Shown here piece by piece: positions 1-17,192 of a stretch of DNA of 17,284 nucleotides. Position 1 is the first letter of the stretch, and every line of letters starts with the position of its first letter. A model generated the notes under the pieces. It worked only from the letters and a program-made list of their open reading frames with translations. It was not told the DNA's origin and did not search any database. The DNA lies in the NCBI GenBank assembly GCA_025934635.1, contig JAICWX010000187.1, forward strand, positions 1 to 17,284, in the 5' to 3' direction. The stretch comes from Streptosporangiaceae bacterium (lineage in GTDB: Bacteria > Actinomycetota > Actinomycetes > Streptosporangiales > Streptosporangiaceae). The position numbers and the translations under genes are program-made.

Positions 1-2
1 GG

Positions 3-248
3 ACGCCGTCGAAGGCGCCGCTGTCGCGGAGCCGGGTGACCTGCTCGCATGCGGCCTCGACGCCGGCCATCTTGTCGTGCGCGACCTGGCCGGCGAGCCA
101 GCCGGGGATCTCGATGTCGGGGATGGCGGCGGCCAGGCGGCGGCCCATGGCCTGCGGTCAGCACCCCGATCTGGTGACGGGCGTGGGTGAGGTCCGGCCG
201 GACGGGAGGCTCGATCTCGCAGACGATCCCGAACGGGCGCGCGCTCAT
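3..248 (-). pseudogene. Methylenetetrahydrofolate reductase remnant (internal deletion, frameshift)
   Basis: This is a decayed gene, cut by the left edge of the window. From the ATG at 248 the first 30 codons read like the N terminus of actinobacterial MTHFR-like proteins, with the pieces IVCEIEPP, RPDLTHARHQIGVL. After about position 159 the similarity stops. From about 157 down to 3, in a different frame, the translation reads like the C-terminal part of the same family (RRLAAAIPDIEIPGWL, then AGVEAACEQVTRLRDSGAFDGV, of which the last part continues off the window). The middle of the protein, which normally carries most of the TIM barrel (roughly 170 residues), is missing and the two ends are out of frame. 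An intact enzyme would reduce 5,10-methylene-THF with a flavin cofactor; this copy cannot. The family assignment is from memory of conserved motifs. No convincing ribosome binding site precedes the ATG. Confidence 0.68.
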
Positions 249-279
249 GACGGCAACGCTAGCGCGCAGGCCATGAACG

Positions 280-296
280 CTGACCGGTTCGGTCAG
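280..296 (-). terminator. Hairpin after wzy
   Basis: A perfect inverted repeat CTGACCG-GTT-CGGTCAG (7-bp stem, 3-base loop) lies 9 bases past the wzy stop codon (306-308). No T-run follows on the minus strand, so it would be a hairpin-only terminator of the kind common in actinobacteria. It fits as the end of the polysaccharide operon and separates it from the MTHFR remnant. Confidence 0.5.
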
Positions 297-305
297 GCAG
301 CACTG

Positions 306-1709
306 TTATAACACTCTGCCATAAAGACTTCCCGGCGCCATGCGGCGAAGTCCTCGGCCGCCGCCCGTCCTCGGCCGAGGACTGCGGTCCGCCGGGGCCC
401 GGCGGCCGTACAGCAGCAACTCGGCGCACGTGGCCAGCAGGGCAAGCGCCGCCGCCGCGCGCATCTGGACCACCATCGTGGGCAGGCCGGCCTCGTACAG
501 CAGGGCTGAAGCGATCGCGCCTGCGAGCAGGATGACCCTGGCGGGCGTGCACTCCCGCAGCAGCCAGCTTTCGAACCGGCCGAAGACGAGCCCGAGGAAA
601 AAGAAAAGAAGGAACAGCCAGGGAAACGGGAGCATCCCGACGTAGGTGCCCACCATGCTCGGGATGTAGTTGATCTGCTGCAAGCCGAAGTCATCGATCT
701 GCAGCTGCGCCGGGTTAATGCCCGGCCCGAGCGCGAGCTTGCTCTTCCACAGGAAGCTCGGGACGGCAAGGAGCAGCGATTCCGGCACGTAGCTAGCGCT
801 CAGCCGAGGCTGCCCCTCGCTCATCGACTGCAGGATGGACCCCGCGAAGTCAACCCCGGCTTCCCGGGTCGCGAACTGGGCGACAAGCCCCGGCATCGCG
901 GCGTCGTTCCCCGAGGACCCGCCGAACAGGCCGCTGCCGAGCGCGCTTATCCGGCTGCCCAGACCGCTGTTCGTGTAGAAGATGTCGCGTCCCTGCTGAA
1001 CCCGTACCCCGTTGATCGCATGCAAGGCCATCAACGCCAGCAGCGCCGCGGCCAGGAGCTGACGGCGCGGTAGCCGGATGCCGATGAAGGTCAGCACGAC
1101 AATCAGCGCGAGTCCGTCCATCAGGATGGGGGTGCGCTCCCCGGCCAGGGCGAGCATCAGGGACTGGACGATCAGCACCGGCAGGAGCCACCGGGTCCCG
1201 TGCCGCAGCACGAACGCGACCGCTGCCGTGGCGATCATGACGATGAAGAAGGTGGAGACCAGGTTGGTCTCCAGCGACGTGCCCGCGCCGGTCGCCCTGC
1301 CGTCGTTGTAGCCCTCGCCGGCGGCGGTGACTATGACCATCGGGACGCAGGCCGCCGCGAGTACCCGCCAGTCGAGCACTCTGGTCAGGGCGGTCAGGTT
1401 GACCGGGCGGGACGGCCCCTCCACCCGTTCCGGGTGGGTTAGCAAGTAGGCGATGGTGAAGCCCAGCATGACGACTGACATGATCAGGTCGGCCTGGTCG
1501 GTAAAACTGCGATTGACGCCGATCGCGAAGCTGTCCTGCGCGCTGACCGACGGGATGGCCAGCAGCGCGGGCGCGATGCCCAGGTCGACGGTGGAGGCGA
1601 GCATGAACAGCACCACCGGGCGAAGCAGCCAACGCCGCCCGATCCGGTGCCTGAGCAGCGCGAGCGACACGGCCTGCGCGAGCAGCGCGGCGAGCAGGGT
1701 AGTACTCAC
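306..1709 (-). CDS. Wzy-like O-antigen/EPS polymerase, multi-pass membrane protein
   Basis: This 467-residue, very hydrophobic protein has about ten predicted membrane segments. Segments lie near residues 4-20, 31-52, 75-91, 114-130, 150-168, 174-190, 197-212 and 217-233, and more follow from 360 to 434. Between them is one large loop at about 235-350, the arrangement seen in Wzy polymerases, which join lipid-linked repeat units on the outer face of the membrane. A GERTPIL piece at 190-196 resembles the conserved G-x-R patch before a mid-protein helix in this family. The GTG start at 1709 is chosen because AGGGGA sits 5 bases upstream and because GTG overlaps the stop of the preceding short gene as GTGA, suggesting translational coupling. 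The C-terminal tail (about 435-467) is Arg/Pro rich and probably cytoplasmic. Wzy sequences are poorly conserved, so the call rests on topology and context. Confidence 0.72.
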   Translation of the reverse strand: MSTTLLAALLAQAVSLALLRHRIGRRWLLRPVVLFMLASTVDLGIAPALLAIPSVSAQDSFAIGVNRSFTDQADLIMSVVMLGFTIAYLLTHPERVEGPSRPVNLTALTRVLDWRVLAAACVPMVIVTAAGEGYNDGRATGAGTSLETNLVSTFFIVMIATAAVAFVLRHGTRWLLPVLIVQSLMLALAGERTPILMDGLALIVVLTFIGIRLPRRQLLAAALLALMALHAINGVRVQQGRDIFYTNSGLGSRISALGSGLFGGSSGNDAAMPGLVAQFATREAGVDFAGSILQSMSEGQPRLSASYVPESLLLAVPSFLWKSKLALGPGINPAQLQIDDFGLQQINYIPSMVGTYVGMLPFPWLFLLFFFLGLVFGRFESWLLRECTPARVILLAGAIASALLYEAGLPTMVVQMRAAAALALLATCAELLLYGRRAPADRSPRPRTGGGRGLRRMAPGSLYGRVL

Positions 1710-1906
1710 GTGCGTCCCCTAGCCAGCGGCCCCAGGTCAGCCGGCAGTTCGGTGCTGGCGATTCTGGCTACCCGTGCCGGGTCGGGGCTGACCACCGTCA
1801 CCGCGATCATGATTGACTGCACGAGCAGCTGCGTTGTGGCTGAGCGCTGCCTGGTCAGCCCGTGCAGGTAACCGCGGAGTGTCGTCTCGACTCCAGGCTC
1901 AGCCAT
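1706..1906 (-). pseudogene. Mini-Wzz: internally deleted relative of the Wzc N terminus
   Basis: The 66-codon frame aligns in three blocks with the Wzc-like protein encoded at 12525-14156. Residues 1-20 match Wzc 1-20 (11 identities, including EPG, YLH). Residues 21-30 match Wzc 46-55 (SATxQLLVQ, 8 of 10). Residues 33-51 match Wzc 111-129 (MIAVTVVS...ARVARIA, 10 of 19). The missing pieces are the first transmembrane helix and about 55 residues of the periplasmic domain; everything after residue 129, including the kinase, is also gone. The frame nevertheless stays open, starts with ATG after GGGGGA at 1912-1917, and its stop overlaps the wzy start as GTGA. It is most simply a degraded Wzz gene kept as a translational leader for wzy, but a functional soluble small protein cannot be excluded. 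No membrane segment or kinase motif remains. Confidence 0.7.
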
Positions 1907-2312
1907 CGGATTCCCCCAGGTTTCCCTCGATCCCCAATCGTGCGGACTGACCCGCCAAGCCGGTCGCTGGCGTGACGCCCGTAGACCGTCACGAGACCGT
2001 CACGCAAGAACTGAAAGCTTAGTGTACACGAATGAATACACATAGTGATTACATACGTCCGATGTCTGCTATCCTCTTACTGCGCTGGACCCGGGGTGCC
2101 GGGCGGCTGCGGTCCGGTGCCTACGCGGCCCGGGCGGCAGCTGCGGGAGCCGGGCGCCGCTCCCGTCGATGACCTCGACGCGAACCACGTCATCCCGGCC
2201 GTGACGGTGGCGGTGACCGCCTGGCCGGAGGCCTGATCGGGCTGTACCGCACGCTGTTGCCGCACAGCTCATGCCGACGCCGTCTAACTTGATAAAAAGT
2301 CAGGTCCCAAAG
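1907..2312. other. 406-base spacer between methyltransferase and mini-Wzz genes
   Basis: No convincing gene is seen here. The part nearest the mini-Wzz (1965-2060) is comparatively AT-rich and repeat-bearing and probably holds a leader and promoter for the mini-Wzz/wzy pair on the minus strand. The part from 2070 to 2270 is GC-rich; its short open frames (around 2045-2236 plus, 2069-2272 minus) have no recognisable motif or clear ribosome binding site. Past 2280 the sequence turns AT-rich at the end of the methyltransferase gene, with a T5 run on the minus strand (2293-2298) but no GC-rich stem directly before it. Confidence 0.5.
1970..2005 (-). promoter_or_regulatory. Tandem 11-bp repeat with alternative stem-loops in the mini-Wzz/wzy leader
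   Basis: AGACCGTCACG occurs twice head to tail (1983-1993 and 1994-2004). GCGTGACG at 1970-1977 is complementary to both: 7 bp with the first copy (loop of 9) or 8 bp with the second (CGTCACGC, 1998-2005, loop of 20). The two pairings exclude each other. The element lies 64-99 bases upstream of the mini-Wzz ATG and could be an operator with direct repeats or a switchable leader structure. The repeats are seen in the sequence; any function is inference. Confidence 0.4.
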
Positions 2313-2984
2313 TCAGCTCCTGATGAAGATAGCCGTGTCCCATATCCCGGAACTTGTCCAGATAGACCGCCAGCCGGCCATCTCGGCCGCTACCTCGGCC
2401 CAGACCGGTGTCAGCGGGCCGAGCGCGGCGGTCCGTGAATTCGGCGCCTTCGACTGACACGGCAAGTACCAGTTGACATTGTCGATGATGAGCATTCCGC
2501 CCGGCTTGATCTTGGGCAGGATGAATTTGGCCGAGTAATCCCGGTAGTGCCCGTCGACGAGGGCGAAGTCGATGCTCTCATCGGCGAATGACAGCGCGGT
2601 CCTGGCGTAGGCGCTGTCGCCGCCGCGCTCCATGGGCTGGTCCCCGGGGGCCAGGATGTAGTCGACGTTTTGCAGCCCGCGGGCTTGCAGCGTAGCGGTG
2701 ACGGTCTCATGCCATCGCTCGTCGTGCTCCACGCTGGTCAGCGCGGCGACGCGCCGCGCGAACCAGACCGTGCTGCGGCCGGAGCCGAACTCCACGCCCA
2801 CGTCGGCGGGGCGCAGCAGGGACTCAAGCAGCCCGATGGCGGCCGGGGTCAGCCACGGGGCGTCGGCGTGACCGCGCTCGTAGATCAGCTGGCGCGTGCG
2901 GTTGTAGAGGTAACGGGGGGTCCGGTGACCCAGCGCGCGGGAGAGCGCGGGCACTGGGCGGGCGGGTGCGGACACGGCGTTCAT
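2313..2984 (-). CDS. Class I SAM-dependent methyltransferase (Methyltransf_24-like)
   Basis: The 223-residue protein has a Rossmann SAM-binding fold: motif I VEFGSGRSTVW (64-74), the acidic strand-2 end SVEHDERW (84-91), ALVDGHYRDY (141-150) and GGMLIIDN (162-169). The DGxH plus IIDN pattern is typical of the Methyltransf_24 group, which includes sugar and small-molecule O-methyltransferases; the acceptor here is unknown. The ATG at 2984 is preferred over one at 3011 because GGAGGA (2994-2999) lies 9 bases before it and because the ATG shares one base with the stop of the FkbM gene (TGATG), indicating coupling. It is the last of four consecutive methyltransferase genes and is followed by a 400-base spacer. 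No signal peptide or membrane segment is seen, so it should act in the cytoplasm. Confidence 0.85.
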   Translation of the reverse strand: MNAVSAPARPVPALSRALGHRTPRYLYNRTRQLIYERGHADAPWLTPAAIGLLESLLRPADVGVEFGSGRSTVWFARRVAALTSVEHDERWHETVTATLQARGLQNVDYILAPGDQPMERGGDSAYARTALSFADESIDFALVDGHYRDYSAKFILPKIKPGGMLIIDNVNWYLPCQSKAPNSRTAALGPLTPVWAEVAAEMAGWRSIWTSSGIWDTAIFIRS

Positions 2985-3847
2985 CAGCGAGCATCCTCCA
3001 GGGCGGGACAAGCGAAGACATCAGCACCGAAGCCGTCGGCGGCGACCGGGATGAGGCATCCAGCCAGGTCGGGGCGGTAGAGCCGGTACCCGTAGCCGAT
3101 CAGCAGCTCGGCGACAGGACGCCGGTCAACGCCGACGGCAAAGGTGGACATCTGGTTCCACTCGAGCTGGATCAGGCCGATCCGGTGGCCGGCGAGCGCA
3201 CGGGCACAGCCGCGGAGCACGTCGATCTCGAACCCCTCGACATCGATCTTCATGCCGGTGACGTGACGATCACCGATGAGCGAGTCGACCGTGACCAGCT
3301 CGGTTTCCACCGGGCCGTCCGGGTCCAGGCTGTTGCCGGCGTCCCGGCCCGCGGTGAACCTGGCGATTCCGCAGTGGTCGCCGGCGGCGGCCTGCACCGC
3401 GGTCACCTGGTAGCCGTTGAGCGCGATGTTCTCCCGCAGCAGGCCGAAAGTGTCGGCGGCGGGCTCGAGCGCGATGACCTCGGCGCCGAGTTCGGCGGCC
3501 CACAGCGTGTACGTACCCACGTTGGCGCCCACGTCGACGAACAGCCCGCCGTCCCGCAGCACCCGCCGCCACACCAACATCTCGGGCAGGTCGGGCGGGT
3601 TGGCGTACAGCACCATCGAGGCGCTAGTGCGGTGCAGGTCGACCCAGAGCCGGGATCGCTCCCCTAGCCGCGCGATCGCCCGGCGGCGGAGCAGGCGGCT
3701 CCGTGCCTGGTAACGGACGACGCGCAGCAGAGCGCGGCCGCGCCGCCCGGAGTTCGAGGGATGCCGCCAGACGTACCTGACGACTGACGCGACAGTGCCG
3801 AGCCAGGTGCGGACGGCAGGCATGTAACGGCCGGACCGCTTCCGCAT
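2984..3847 (-). CDS. FkbM family SAM-dependent methyltransferase
   Basis: This 287-residue protein has a basic N-terminal stretch (residues 1-65, many Arg) followed by the FkbM methyltransferase domain: motif I FVDVGANVGTYT (103-114), ALEPA (126-130), ENIALNG (139-145), LVTVDSL (184-190) and MKIDVEGFE (199-207). FkbM enzymes methylate hydroxyl groups of macrolides and, in glycan loci, of sugars. The ATG at 3847 is selected by a strong ribosome binding site (GAGGAG at 3855-3860, spacing 7); the frame is open further upstream, but that part lies under the preceding gene and reads as shadow sequence. The start lies inside the preceding methyltransferase frame (out-of-frame overlap of 224 bases), and the stop overlaps the next start. 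The sugar acceptor cannot be deduced. Confidence 0.87.
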   Translation of the reverse strand: MRKRSGRYMPAVRTWLGTVASVVRYVWRHPSNSGRRGRALLRVVRYQARSRLLRRRAIARLGERSRLWVDLHRTSASMVLYANPPDLPEMLVWRRVLRDGGLFVDVGANVGTYTLWAAELGAEVIALEPAADTFGLLRENIALNGYQVTAVQAAAGDHCGIARFTAGRDAGNSLDPDGPVETELVTVDSLIGDRHVTGMKIDVEGFEIDVLRGCARALAGHRIGLIQLEWNQMSTFAVGVDRRPVAELLIGYGYRLYRPDLAGCLIPVAADGFGADVFACPALEDAR

Positions 3848-4502
3848 AGACGCTCTCCTCTGCCCGCTCGTGCAGGTCGAGCTGGCCCGGGTCGGCGATC
3901 GCGGTCGAGCCGGGCGGCAGGATGCCACCGTCGGCGAACCCCGCATCGGCCAGCAGCCGCAGCAGCGAGTCCCCGTCATACATCCACAGATGATGCCGCG
4001 GCCCGGCCAGCGCCCACCGCGCCCGCGCCCGCAACCCCGCGGGCCGATCCAGGCCCATGTGAGTACCGGCCACGAACCCGTCCGCATCCCCGGAGGCGAC
4101 GTACCCGGCCACCAGCCGGGACAGGTCCGGGGCAGCCAGCCGGGCGATACCGCCAGGCCGCAGCACCCGCATCACCTCAGCCAGGAACGCCCGCGCCTCG
4201 CCGCGATCCAGATGCTCGATCATGTGTGAGCTGTACACTGCCCGGGCCGCCCCTGTGGCACACGGAATACGTACCGCAGCATTAGCGAACCGAATATCCT
4301 CCGACCGCGCCAAGGCAACCAAGTCCGCAGACCGCGGGCCGAGGAAAAACGTGCCCGCGAGCATCGCGCCAATTCCTGGCCAGCGGGACACGCGAACGCT
4401 GAATGAGTTGTCGAAATTAAGCCATCCGGGAGTGGGCGTCGCCCCACATCCGACATTCACCAGAATGTCGGACTTCGTTACTTGAAGATTGATTCTCCCC
4501 AC
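3624..4502 (-). CDS. Class I SAM methyltransferase with read-through C terminus
   Basis: The 292-residue frame has motif I LVNVGCGATPTPGWLNFD (14-31), SSHMIEHLD (91-99), VLRPGG (113-118) and HHLWMYDGDSL (170-180), the pattern of small predicted methyltransferases common in glycan loci. In relatives I know, the protein ends shortly after a segment like ESVYAEA (216-222). Here the frame continues about 70 residues beyond it, entirely on top of the FkbM gene in another frame, with Arg/Pro/Ala-rich sequence of shadow type. The gene has therefore probably lost its original stop by a small indel or substitution, or there is a sequencing error. The start is uncertain: GTG at 4502 lacks a clear ribosome binding site. 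The methyl acceptor is unknown. A 92-base gap without a clear promoter separates it from the upstream methyltransferase. Confidence 0.78.
   Translation of the reverse strand: MGRINLQVTKSDILVNVGCGATPTPGWLNFDNSFSVRVSRWPGIGAMLAGTFFLGPRSADLVALARSEDIRFANAAVRIPCATGAARAVYSSHMIEHLDRGEARAFLAEVMRVLRPGGIARLAAPDLSRLVAGYVASGDADGFVAGTHMGLDRPAGLRARARWALAGPRHHLWMYDGDSLLRLLADAGFADGGILPPGSTAIADPGQLDLHERAEESVYAEAVRPLHACRPHLARHCRVSRQVRLAASLELRAARPRSAARRPLPGTEPPAPPPGDRAARGAIPALGRPAPH
3855..3860 (-). promoter_or_regulatory. Ribosome binding site fixing the FkbM start
   Basis: GAGGAG on the minus strand, 7 bases before the ATG at 3847, lies inside the coding sequence of the upstream methyltransferase. It decides the FkbM start and shows that the upstream gene's natural end should be near here. 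Confidence 0.7.
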
Positions 4503-4594: not shown

Positions 4595-5551
4595 TCACCG
4601 GGTCAGGCGGGCCTTGAGGGATCCGGCGCGGCCGAGCGCTCCCGACAGTCGGTACACCGGGTCGAAAGGCGCGGCGGCCGAGTAGAAGCGAGCTAGCGCC
4701 GTCTTGGCACCGGGATTGACCTTTCCGGATTCCAGAGCAGGCCCCGTCGCGGCCAGGCTCTGCTCCGCGGCCCGGCCGAGGCCGCGACGTGTCCGGGACC
4801 GGTCGCGGGCGGCGATCAGGGCGGAAACCGGGAACTCGAAGGGGAGCCCGGTCGACCAGATCCGTTCTATCCGCAAGCCGCTTGCCTGCGCCGCCATGGC
4901 CAGTCCGGAGGATGAGGGAAAGGAGACGTGGTCGTGCACCTTGCACATCGCCCACCAGGCCCTGAGCGCGGTTGCCTCAAACGACAGCGCGTTCGGCGTC
5001 GACAGGTAAAAGGTACCGCCGGGAGTGAGCACCTCCCTGACGGCACGCAGGAAGGCCGCGATGTCATAGATATGCTCGAATACGTTAATGGCCACGACCG
5101 CGTCGAAGGTGCGGCCGTCAGGGATCTCATCCATCGTCGAGTACAGCGTGCCGATGCCCCACGTATCGCGGATGTAGTCCCGGTGAACCGCGCTGGACTC
5201 CACCGCCTCCACTGAGCAGCCGGCCTCGCGCGCCGCCGCGAGCAAGTGGCCCGACCCCGGCCCGATCTCGAGCACTGATCCGGCAGGAAGGGCCAGTCCG
5301 GTCCAGAGCGCACCCGACGGCTCGCGCCCGGTGAGCGCATTACTGACATCTATGTACTCATCGTCCTGAAATGCCTCATCGTGAAGAAGCTGGAACCTGG
5401 CTGGCGTTATGTCCCTGAATACCGAGCGACAATTCTGGCATCTAATCCAGATATCGACTCTGGTGCCGACGACACGCGATGAATCGCCGCCGCAAAAAGG
5501 GCACCTACGACGCGTGGCCGTTCGGGCGCCGGCCATCGGCTGCCGGGTCAT
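4595..5551 (-). CDS. SAM methyltransferase with N-terminal zinc ribbon
   Basis: The 318-residue protein begins with two CxxC knuckles (C17/C20 and C38/C41), which probably bind zinc. A Methyltransf_23-type domain follows: EIGPGSGHLL (95-104), EAVESS (115-120), VAINVFEHIYD (153-163), LTPGGTFYLSTPN (175-187) and HDHVSFPS (206-213). Zinc-ribbon methyltransferases of this layout are frequent in O-antigen and natural-product sugar loci, where members act as sugar C- or O-methyltransferases; the C-terminal partner domain typical of the 400-residue C-methyltransferases is absent here. The ATG at 5551 overlaps the stop of the two-domain oxidoreductase as ATGA, and an AGGGTG lies about 10 bases upstream; an in-frame ATG at 5536 is an alternative. 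It is the last member of the tightly coupled operon segment. Confidence 0.86.
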   Translation of the reverse strand: MTRQPMAGARTATRRRCPFCGGDSSRVVGTRVDIWIRCQNCRSVFRDITPARFQLLHDEAFQDDEYIDVSNALTGREPSGALWTGLALPAGSVLEIGPGSGHLLAAAREAGCSVEAVESSAVHRDYIRDTWGIGTLYSTMDEIPDGRTFDAVVAINVFEHIYDIAAFLRAVREVLTPGGTFYLSTPNALSFEATALRAWWAMCKVHDHVSFPSSSGLAMAAQASGLRIERIWSTGLPFEFPVSALIAARDRSRTRRGLGRAAEQSLAATGPALESGKVNPGAKTALARFYSAAAPFDPVYRLSGALGRAGSLKARLTR

Positions 5552-12524: not shown

Positions 12525-14156
12525 TCAGGCCGGGTCAGAGTGAGATGCGGCTCCCAGCTTGCTGTTCCCGTTCGGGTGCTCCGCGTCGGCCTCCGCTGTC
12601 TCCCTTGGCTCGTACGCCTTGTACTCGTGCCGCCCGTGGCCGTAGGTGTATCCGTAGCTATAGCCGTACCCGTAGCCGTACTCGCGGCTGGTCTGCTTCG
12701 TCACCTTGTTCAGCACGATGCCCAGGATCGTGGCACCGACCTGGTCCAGCTTCTCCGCGGCCCGGTGCAGGTCACCTCGCCGGGTCTGGCCCGCGGCGGC
12801 CAGCATCAGCGTGGCGTCCGCGTACTGGGACAAGATCGCGGCGTCGGTGACGGGCAGCACCGGCGGGCTGTCGATGAGCACCAGGTCGAACTGGTCGCGG
12901 AGCTGGCCGAAGATGTCCCGCACCTGGTCGCCGTTGAGCAGTTCGGCCGGGTTCGGCGGGATGGGGCCAGCCGGGAGCAGGGTGAGCCGGTCGATCCCCG
13001 AGACCGGTACCAGCGCCTGTTCCAGCGTGTGCTCGCCGAGCAGGATGCTGGTCAGGCCGACCCGCTCGTCGAGCCCGAAGAACTCGCCGATCTTGGGCCG
13101 CCGCAGGTCGCACGAGACGAGTAGGACCCGCTCGCCGGCCTGGGCGAAGACCACGCCCAGGTTGGCCAGGGTGGAGGTCTTGCCGTCGCCGACCGCCGGG
13201 CTGGTCACCACGATCACCCGCAGCTGCCGCTCCTGCCGGGCGAACTGCAGCGAGGTGCGCAGCGATCGGTATGCCTCGGCGGCCGGTGAACTCGGCTCGG
13301 CCACCACCGCGACCGTCGGCCCCGGCCGCCGCCCCGCGGGCACCAGCGGGGCCATCGCTAGCACCGGCGCTCCCCCCGCGCGCTCGGCCGCGTCCTTGGA
13401 CGCCAGCCGGTCGTCCAGGCTTTCCAGCAGGAACGCCGCGCCCAGGCCGAGGGCGAGCCCCGCGACCAGGCCGAGCAGCGCATCCTGAACCGGTTTGGGC
13501 GAGCTCGGCGCCGCCGGCGTCTGCGCGGGGGTGACCAGCGCCACCTCGCCGGTGTTGACCGCCCCGCTGACCTCCATCTGGGCCAGCTGCTCCTTCAGCA
13601 CCGCCTCCTGGTTGAGCAGTGCCGACGCTGCCGGGGAGGTGATATTGCGACCGAGGGACCTGATCTGGTTCCCCAGCGTGGAGATCTGCGACCGCAGCTG
13701 CGCCTCGGCACTGGCCAGGCTGTTGCTCGTCACCTGCTGGCGGTACTGTACGAACGCGCCCGCGTACAGGTTCGCGATGCGGGCCGCCCGGGACGGCACC
13801 CGGCTCGTGGCAGTGATCGCGATCACGTTCGTCTGGCCCACCTGCGTAGCCTTGACTGCCGGGGCGCTGCCGAGCTTGGCGCGTACCGCCTGCACCACGG
13901 GGGCGCTGGTGACCAGTTGCAGCTCGGTGGCCACGTCGGTCTGGGTGACCGGCTGCGGGGTGGTGCCCGCGGTGGCCGCGGTGACCGACGGCTGCACGAG
14001 AAGCTGCGCCGTGGCCGAGTACTGCTTGTGCGAAGTCAGCGAGAGCGCGAGGCTGGCGGCGAGCCCGAGCAGGGTGATCGACACCACCCACCATTTCCTG
14101 CGGCGCAGGACATGGAGGTATGCACGAAAGGACGGCTCGGTGCCGGGTTCGGTCAT
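12525..14156 (-). CDS. Wzz-domain BY-kinase (Wzc-like polysaccharide tyrosine autokinase)
   Basis: The 543-residue protein combines a Wzz chain-length domain with a bacterial tyrosine kinase. Membrane helices lie at about 23-41 and 225-245. The kinase has EAYRSLRTSL (294-303), Walker A SPAVGDGKTS (319-328), Walker A' VSCDLRRP (347-354) and Walker B DLVLIDSPP (424-432). The C-terminal tail carries nine tyrosines between 493 and 515, mostly as alternating Tyr-Gly, the expected autophosphorylation cluster. The codons form a degenerate hexamer run (about 12620-12690), which could change length by slippage. Cycles of phosphorylation and dephosphorylation control chain length and export; the divergent phosphatase gene beside it is the natural partner. 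The ATG at 14156 has only a weak ribosome binding site. Its first 130 residues are mirrored in the mini-Wzz at 1706-1906. Confidence 0.93.
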   Translation of the reverse strand: MTEPGTEPSFRAYLHVLRRRKWWVVSITLLGLAASLALSLTSHKQYSATAQLLVQPSVTAATAGTTPQPVTQTDVATELQLVTSAPVVQAVRAKLGSAPAVKATQVGQTNVIAITATSRVPSRAARIANLYAGAFVQYRQQVTSNSLASAEAQLRSQISTLGNQIRSLGRNITSPAASALLNQEAVLKEQLAQMEVSGAVNTGEVALVTPAQTPAAPSSPKPVQDALLGLVAGLALGLGAAFLLESLDDRLASKDAAERAGGAPVLAMAPLVPAGRRPGPTVAVVAEPSSPAAEAYRSLRTSLQFARQERQLRVIVVTSPAVGDGKTSTLANLGVVFAQAGERVLLVSCDLRRPKIGEFFGLDERVGLTSILLGEHTLEQALVPVSGIDRLTLLPAGPIPPNPAELLNGDQVRDIFGQLRDQFDLVLIDSPPVLPVTDAAILSQYADATLMLAAAGQTRRGDLHRAAEKLDQVGATILGIVLNKVTKQTSREYGYGYGYSYGYTYGHGRHEYKAYEPRETAEADAEHPNGNSKLGAASHSDPA

Positions 14157-17120: not shown

Positions 17121-17192
17121 CCGGCCCGGCGCGAGTCGAACGCGCACTAGCGGTTGAGGAGACCGCTGTCCTCTCCGTTGGACCACGAGCCG
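17121..17192 (-). tRNA. tRNA-Arg(CCT)-like, unusual
   Basis: A full cloverleaf of 72 bases folds on the minus strand. Its acceptor stem is CGGCTCG/CGGGCCG (one G-U), the D stem GTCC/GGAC with loop AACGGAGA, the anticodon stem GCGGT/ACCGC with loop CTCCTCA, the variable loop TAGT, and the T arm GCGCG-TTCGACT-CGCGC. Read canonically the anticodon is CCT (Arg, AGG codons). A20 and C35 agree with arginine identity, and A15-T48 forms the Levitt pair. Oddities are C1-G72 in place of G1-C72 and C at position 37, normally a purine. No CCA is encoded. It could be a divergent functional tRNA or a decaying one. Confidence 0.75.

Follow-up and report, generated by a model that had tools for sequence, protein, structure and literature searches.

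A 66-codon open frame ahead of a wzy-like gene as a probable remnant of a second wzc

Wzz and Wzc co-polymerases carry N- and C-terminal membrane helices around a periplasmic helical domain, according to a published account (PMC7809406). In Wzc (PF02706, TIGR01007) the co-polymerase is fused to a tyrosine autokinase. Other relevant systems are coupled gene pairs with a 4-nt overlap, for which one report describes E. coli reporter constructs where the last 15 nt of the upstream gene sufficed for termination-reinitiation in two gene pairs (PMC10666635). A short frame in a polysaccharide cluster of a Streptosporangiaceae bacterium bears likeness to both. This "mini frame" (1706–1906, minus strand) shares with Wzc the start, an N-terminal motif, a QLLVQ motif and an IAVT...PARxA segment in the same order, but it lacks the first helix, most of the periplasmic domain, the second helix and the kinase, and several near-invariant residues are altered. 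With the coupled pairs it shares, at the sequence level, a GTGA overlap with the following wzy-like gene. The window, meaning the whole 17,284-nucleotide stretch analysed, also encodes an intact full-length Wzc with a Wzz domain and tyrosine autokinase (12525–14156, minus strand).

Layout of the mini frame and its homology to Wzc

The mini frame runs for 66 codons from ATG to TGA on the minus strand, with a purine-rich GGGGGA a few bases 5′ of the ATG. Its TGA shares the bases GTGA (1706–1709) with the GTG start of the polymerase-like frame at 1709–306 on the same strand. The start codon, a plausible ribosome binding site and the overlap, which the sequence-only reading described as kept, are all present. 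Block 1 (codons 1–20; 1847–1906) corresponds to Wzc residues 1–20, which lie ahead of the first membrane helix, and block 2 (codons 21–31; 1814–1846) corresponds to residues 46–56, directly past that helix. Block 3 (codons 32–51; 1754–1813) corresponds to residues from about 110 to 129. The remaining codons 52–66 and the stop (1706–1753) contain AGGGGA ahead of the polymerase start and have no match in the window Wzc.

Between blocks 1 and 2 the frame has lost about 25 codons, and between blocks 2 and 3 about 54. Both gaps, previously described as two in-frame deletions, are real, but that count overlooked a third loss, the remainder of the gene past about residue 130, kinase included (about 414 residues when counted on the window Wzc). 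The mini frame departs from the helix architecture of Wzz/Wzc co-polymerases, the first-helix segment and all past about residue 130 being gone. RNA folding, a promoter and terminator scan and Rfam yielded nothing for the mini frame. Tandem repeats were absent from positions 1–3000, and repeats within 1600–2400 included nothing that accounts for the deletions. Rfam does place a tRNA gene at 17121–17192 (minus strand), at the edge of the polysaccharide cluster.

The three ordered blocks proposed from the sequence are borne out; they share one frame and fall within the N-terminal quarter of Wzc-type chain-length proteins. BLASTP of the mini frame against the window Wzc recovers blocks 1 and 2 with an E value of 8e-7 and block 3 with 0.001, and an alignment permitting long gaps scores 125, where 5000 shuffles reach at most 91. 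Taken singly, the scores of blocks 1, 2 and 3 were equalled by 0, 2 and 1 of 20000 shuffles, respectively. The last 14 residues do not match the window Wzc, their score being equalled by 19176 of 20000 shuffles, and a free nucleotide-level alignment to that gene does not rise above shuffles (it scores 81, and shuffles reach 86). Of the relatives in which all three blocks occur, the database protein P0131 is the closest. It is identical at 37 of 51 residues (15/20, 9/11 and 13/20 by block) and, when long gaps are cheap, aligns with a score of 152 and a z of about 19.

Searched against proteins, the mini frame recovered its own cluster (three member sequences on five contigs) along with three N-terminal stretches from Wzc-type proteins that carry the motif MAEPGAEPTLRGYLH (E 0.03–0.5). 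A profile made from this cluster and the three stretches retrieved 91 proteins. The Pfam Wzz family PF02706, which the window Wzc matches with 38.7 bits, was not listed for the mini frame at E limits of 1 and 10, although even at the limit of 10 most matches with an E value above about 0.1 are filtered out by the tool. Such an outcome is expected because the core of the Wzz domain is missing. A poor profile match had been named as grounds for dropping the homology claim; a PF02706 match is indeed not listed at these limits, and homology to Wzc stands on the ordered blocks. Judged by these sequence comparisons, the mini frame descends from a Wzc gene.

Parent clade, polymerase partner and occurrence elsewhere

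In a tree built from the 51 block columns only, with 34 sequences, the mini frame groups with P0129, P0131, P0132 and P0135 (UFBoot 85), and these four group without it at a support of 90. Fifty rows had been chosen (43 database proteins, six full-length Wzc and the mini frame), of which 16 were dropped for gaps or damaged frames. The window Wzc sits elsewhere in the tree, in a clade that differs from that of the mini frame's parent, and the mini frame is therefore no recent copy of the gene at 12525–14156. The resemblance to the same-window protein holds as far as homologous blocks are concerned, but the parent belongs to a second Wzc clade. Wzc homologs were found in seven of 341 genomes at an E value of 1e-25 or better; they align to the window Wzc over 484–551 columns, kinase included, and the homologous frame in one locus (L041) runs off its contig end.

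The frame that follows (306–1709, minus strand; GTG start) encodes 467 amino acids, and Wzy is a likely label for it. Its Pfam Wzy match lies below the cut-off (12.6 against 26.6 bits) and no Pfam family is assigned at E 0.01, while in the family alignment 18 of 35 members match PF14296 with an E value no higher than 0.01 and four match PF01901. Among 7995 candidates scored there were 129 homologs; in the 120 homologs listed, those that are named are called hypothetical protein, and a few come from Trebonia or Streptosporangiaceae. The AlphaFold model is poor (mean pLDDT 41.7). Relatives of the polymerase were found neither in genome contigs searched with two peptide patterns, nor in viral contigs, nor in plasmids. 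Matches occur in three of the seven genomes reached through loci (28–44% identity; E 1e-5) and in two of 341 family genomes, the same two recurring among 345 order genomes (40–44%; E 1e-40), with the four best candidates of each genome scored in the results shown. One metagenomic protein of 767 amino acids (P0031) consists of an FkbM-type methyltransferase fused in frame to a polymerase-like protein.

Both first blocks are present in 81 short database proteins among the 91 of the profile set. Their spacing is 26 in 79 of these and 27 in one; the mini frame, with a spacing of 1, is the exception, so the first deletion is confined to the mini frame among the 81, and its architecture is unmatched in the set of 91. 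The longest contig with a member of the mini-frame cluster has 17,284 nucleotides, the length of the window, and relatives of the polymerase such as P0002, P0009, P0010, P0013 and P0018 lie on longer contigs. If the counts are complete, this hints that the contigs of these five carry no copy of the cluster, short genes being often uncalled. A full-length parent wzc ahead of wzy was not seen in any relative, the one with readable context being locus L001 of genome G002. There the polymerase is 40% identical to that of the window, the frame ahead of wzy encodes a 342-residue protein of another kind, Wzc lies elsewhere in the locus, and the mini frame finds no match. In a tblastn search of the first 19 loci the mini frame had a single weak match, in L013 (E 0.048).

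A second shrunken Wzc that has kept its frame is P0209, an 86-residue protein from metagenomes with three members on three contigs. Like the mini frame it has an in-frame internal loss and the same N-terminal motif, but its deletion is a different one, retaining about 24 residues of the N-terminus (62% identity with L040; E 2e-7) and a C-terminal tail. The piece joined to this N-terminus resembles Wzc residues 477–491 (60%; E 0.02), and the tail is, by eye, rich in tyrosine and glycine. Anchored at their ends, the tail of the mini frame and the C-terminus of P0209 agree weakly, at four of 14 positions (chance about 0.04). Another metagenomic protein, P0197 (104 amino acids), joins a Wzc N-terminus in frame with the last part of a glycosyltransferase and has lost a further internal segment. 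Its second part resembles the end of the window's glycosyltransferase frame (E 4e-9), and the protein may represent either a true deletion or an assembly chimera.

Relaxed constraint and survival of the open frame

Among the 21 Wzc columns that are near-invariant (at least 90% conserved among the other 33 sequences), the mini frame breaks eight, whereas the 33 relatives break 1.2 on average and at most four. Its terminal branch, at 0.40, is the second longest of 34 (median 0.09). GC3 is 0.76, compared with an average of 0.92 in 66-codon windows of nine other genes, where values this low or lower occur in 20 of 1174 windows. Codon adaptation, for which the same nine genes also supply the reference usage, is as low or lower in 17 of 1167 of their windows. 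Constraint on the mini frame is relaxed relative to intact homologs, and its codon usage is degraded. Judged by the minima of each gene, a single gene (4595–5551) supplies all the low-GC3 windows, and codon usage is therefore supporting rather than decisive.

Survival of an open frame was simulated on the three block stretches of five full-length genes, which lie outside the parent's own clade. Mutating 12–16% of sites gives a mean residue change of 23–30%, comparable to the 27% by which the mini frame and P0131 differ. With the blocks in register, 61–69% of simulated sequences contained no stop, and in any register 37–41% retained a frame of at least 60 codons. The chance that both inner gaps fall in register is 1 in 9. 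In DNA this rich in GC, an open frame after such decay is a modest coincidence and not strong evidence of selection. The premise of the sequence-only reading that random decay rarely keeps the frame is thus too strong here, and the selection it proposed finds no support in the broken columns, the long branch, the low codon adaptation or the simulation.

Gene loss by deletion is also seen nearby. At 1–248 (minus strand) lies a pseudogene, cut by the window edge, of a gene that we take to be methylenetetrahydrofolate-reductase-like. Compared with the intact copy in L047 it lacks about 480 nt and its frame is changed, the first 31 residues and a later piece lying in different frames; internal deletion has thus been at work about 1.5 kb from the mini frame. 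Over 50 residues the later piece shares 84% identity with an intact gene of G035, and intact counterparts in L047–L049 are open frames of 265–278 codons. Searches of Pfam and NCBIfam with the pieces gave no family above cut-off. The mini frame is like this pseudogene in its internal deletions, relaxed constraint and degraded codon usage, and unlike it in being still open, by chance or selection. Elsewhere in the window, in the minus-strand pair at 3624–4502 and 2984–4087, a methyltransferase frame overruns the likely ATG of an FkbM-type gene by about 220 bases in another frame, as if it had lost its own stop.

Origin and possible roles of the mini frame

We favour, with a probability of roughly three in four, the view that the mini frame is the collapsed, decaying remnant of a second full-length wzc before wzy and is without Wzz function. 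A second full-length wzc would have stood ahead of wzy, and the resident gene at 12525–14156 plausibly made it redundant. Internal deletions, in whatever order, would then have removed about 25 codons with the first helix, about 54 periplasmic codons and everything past about residue 130, leaving pieces that happen to share one frame ending at the wzy start. The product is probably inert as a Wzz protein because it would have no membrane helix, little of the periplasmic domain and no kinase. Several observations speak against a relic. The start, the plausible ribosome binding site and the coupling overlap are intact and the three blocks remain open in one register; the three member sequences on five contigs indicate that the frame persists at least among close strains; P0209 has likewise shrunk in frame; the one readable context, L001, reveals no intact parent ahead of wzy; and a genuine gene, that at 4595–5551, can have such codon usage.

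Some of these same observations would suit a leader for translational coupling, in which Wzc function is gone and ribosomes that terminate at GTGA re-initiate at wzy, so that only the frame and its end matter. The retained 4-base overlap and ribosome binding site, the relaxed amino-acid constraint and the existence of P0209, with start and C-terminal tail in frame, all fit this role, and termination-reinitiation has a precedent in the E. coli constructs described in that report (PMC10666635). However, wzy has its own AGGGGA ahead of its GTG, clearing the upstream RNA does not increase the predicted accessibility of this ribosome site, the junction is no better folded than shuffles (187 of 200 at least as stable), and in-frame survival by chance is not rare. 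Re-initiation from the mini frame onto wzy would be possible in principle, and we consider a leader role unlikely, if worth keeping in view. The alternative offered alongside it, a selected small cytosolic Wzz-like protein, could draw on the open frame and on the three member sequences on five contigs, but such a protein would have lost near-invariant residues, would be without both membrane helices and the kinase, and would have an architecture unique within the 91-member set; we regard it as very improbable. What stands of the earlier proposal of a selected leader peptide or small protein is the possible leader role, without support for selection.

The mini frame might instead owe nothing to Wzc, being open by chance or a piece of some other family. 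A stretch of 47 residues does resemble, nearly without gaps (about 40%), a conserved segment of other genomes, presumably acyltransferase-like, to which all of the weak matches in 12 of 341 genomes belong (E 0.005–0.01; z 12), and under standard gap costs the two comparisons score fairly close together (P0131 at 91, this segment at 78). Allowing long gaps favours Wzc far more, 152 against 80, with the 37 of 51 identities and z of 19 given above. Moreover, the Wzc match begins at Met 1, the frame adjoins wzy inside a polysaccharide cluster, and the competing match is the top one out of 341 genomes searched. An origin outside Wzc is hardly credible on this evidence.

It is conceivable, as a speculation that we would back only at long odds, that in these soil actinomycetes redundant wzc genes before wzy repeatedly shrink in frame to ribosome-carrying leaders, with the mini frame and P0209 as independent examples. 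If the leader role were true, the mini frame would neatly exemplify how a gene can be pared down to its coupling signal. The locus also carries a caution: where a genome is rich in GC, a frame that is open, has a good start and overlaps the next gene is weak evidence of function. As a relic, the mini frame would document a second wzc lost from this polysaccharide cluster.
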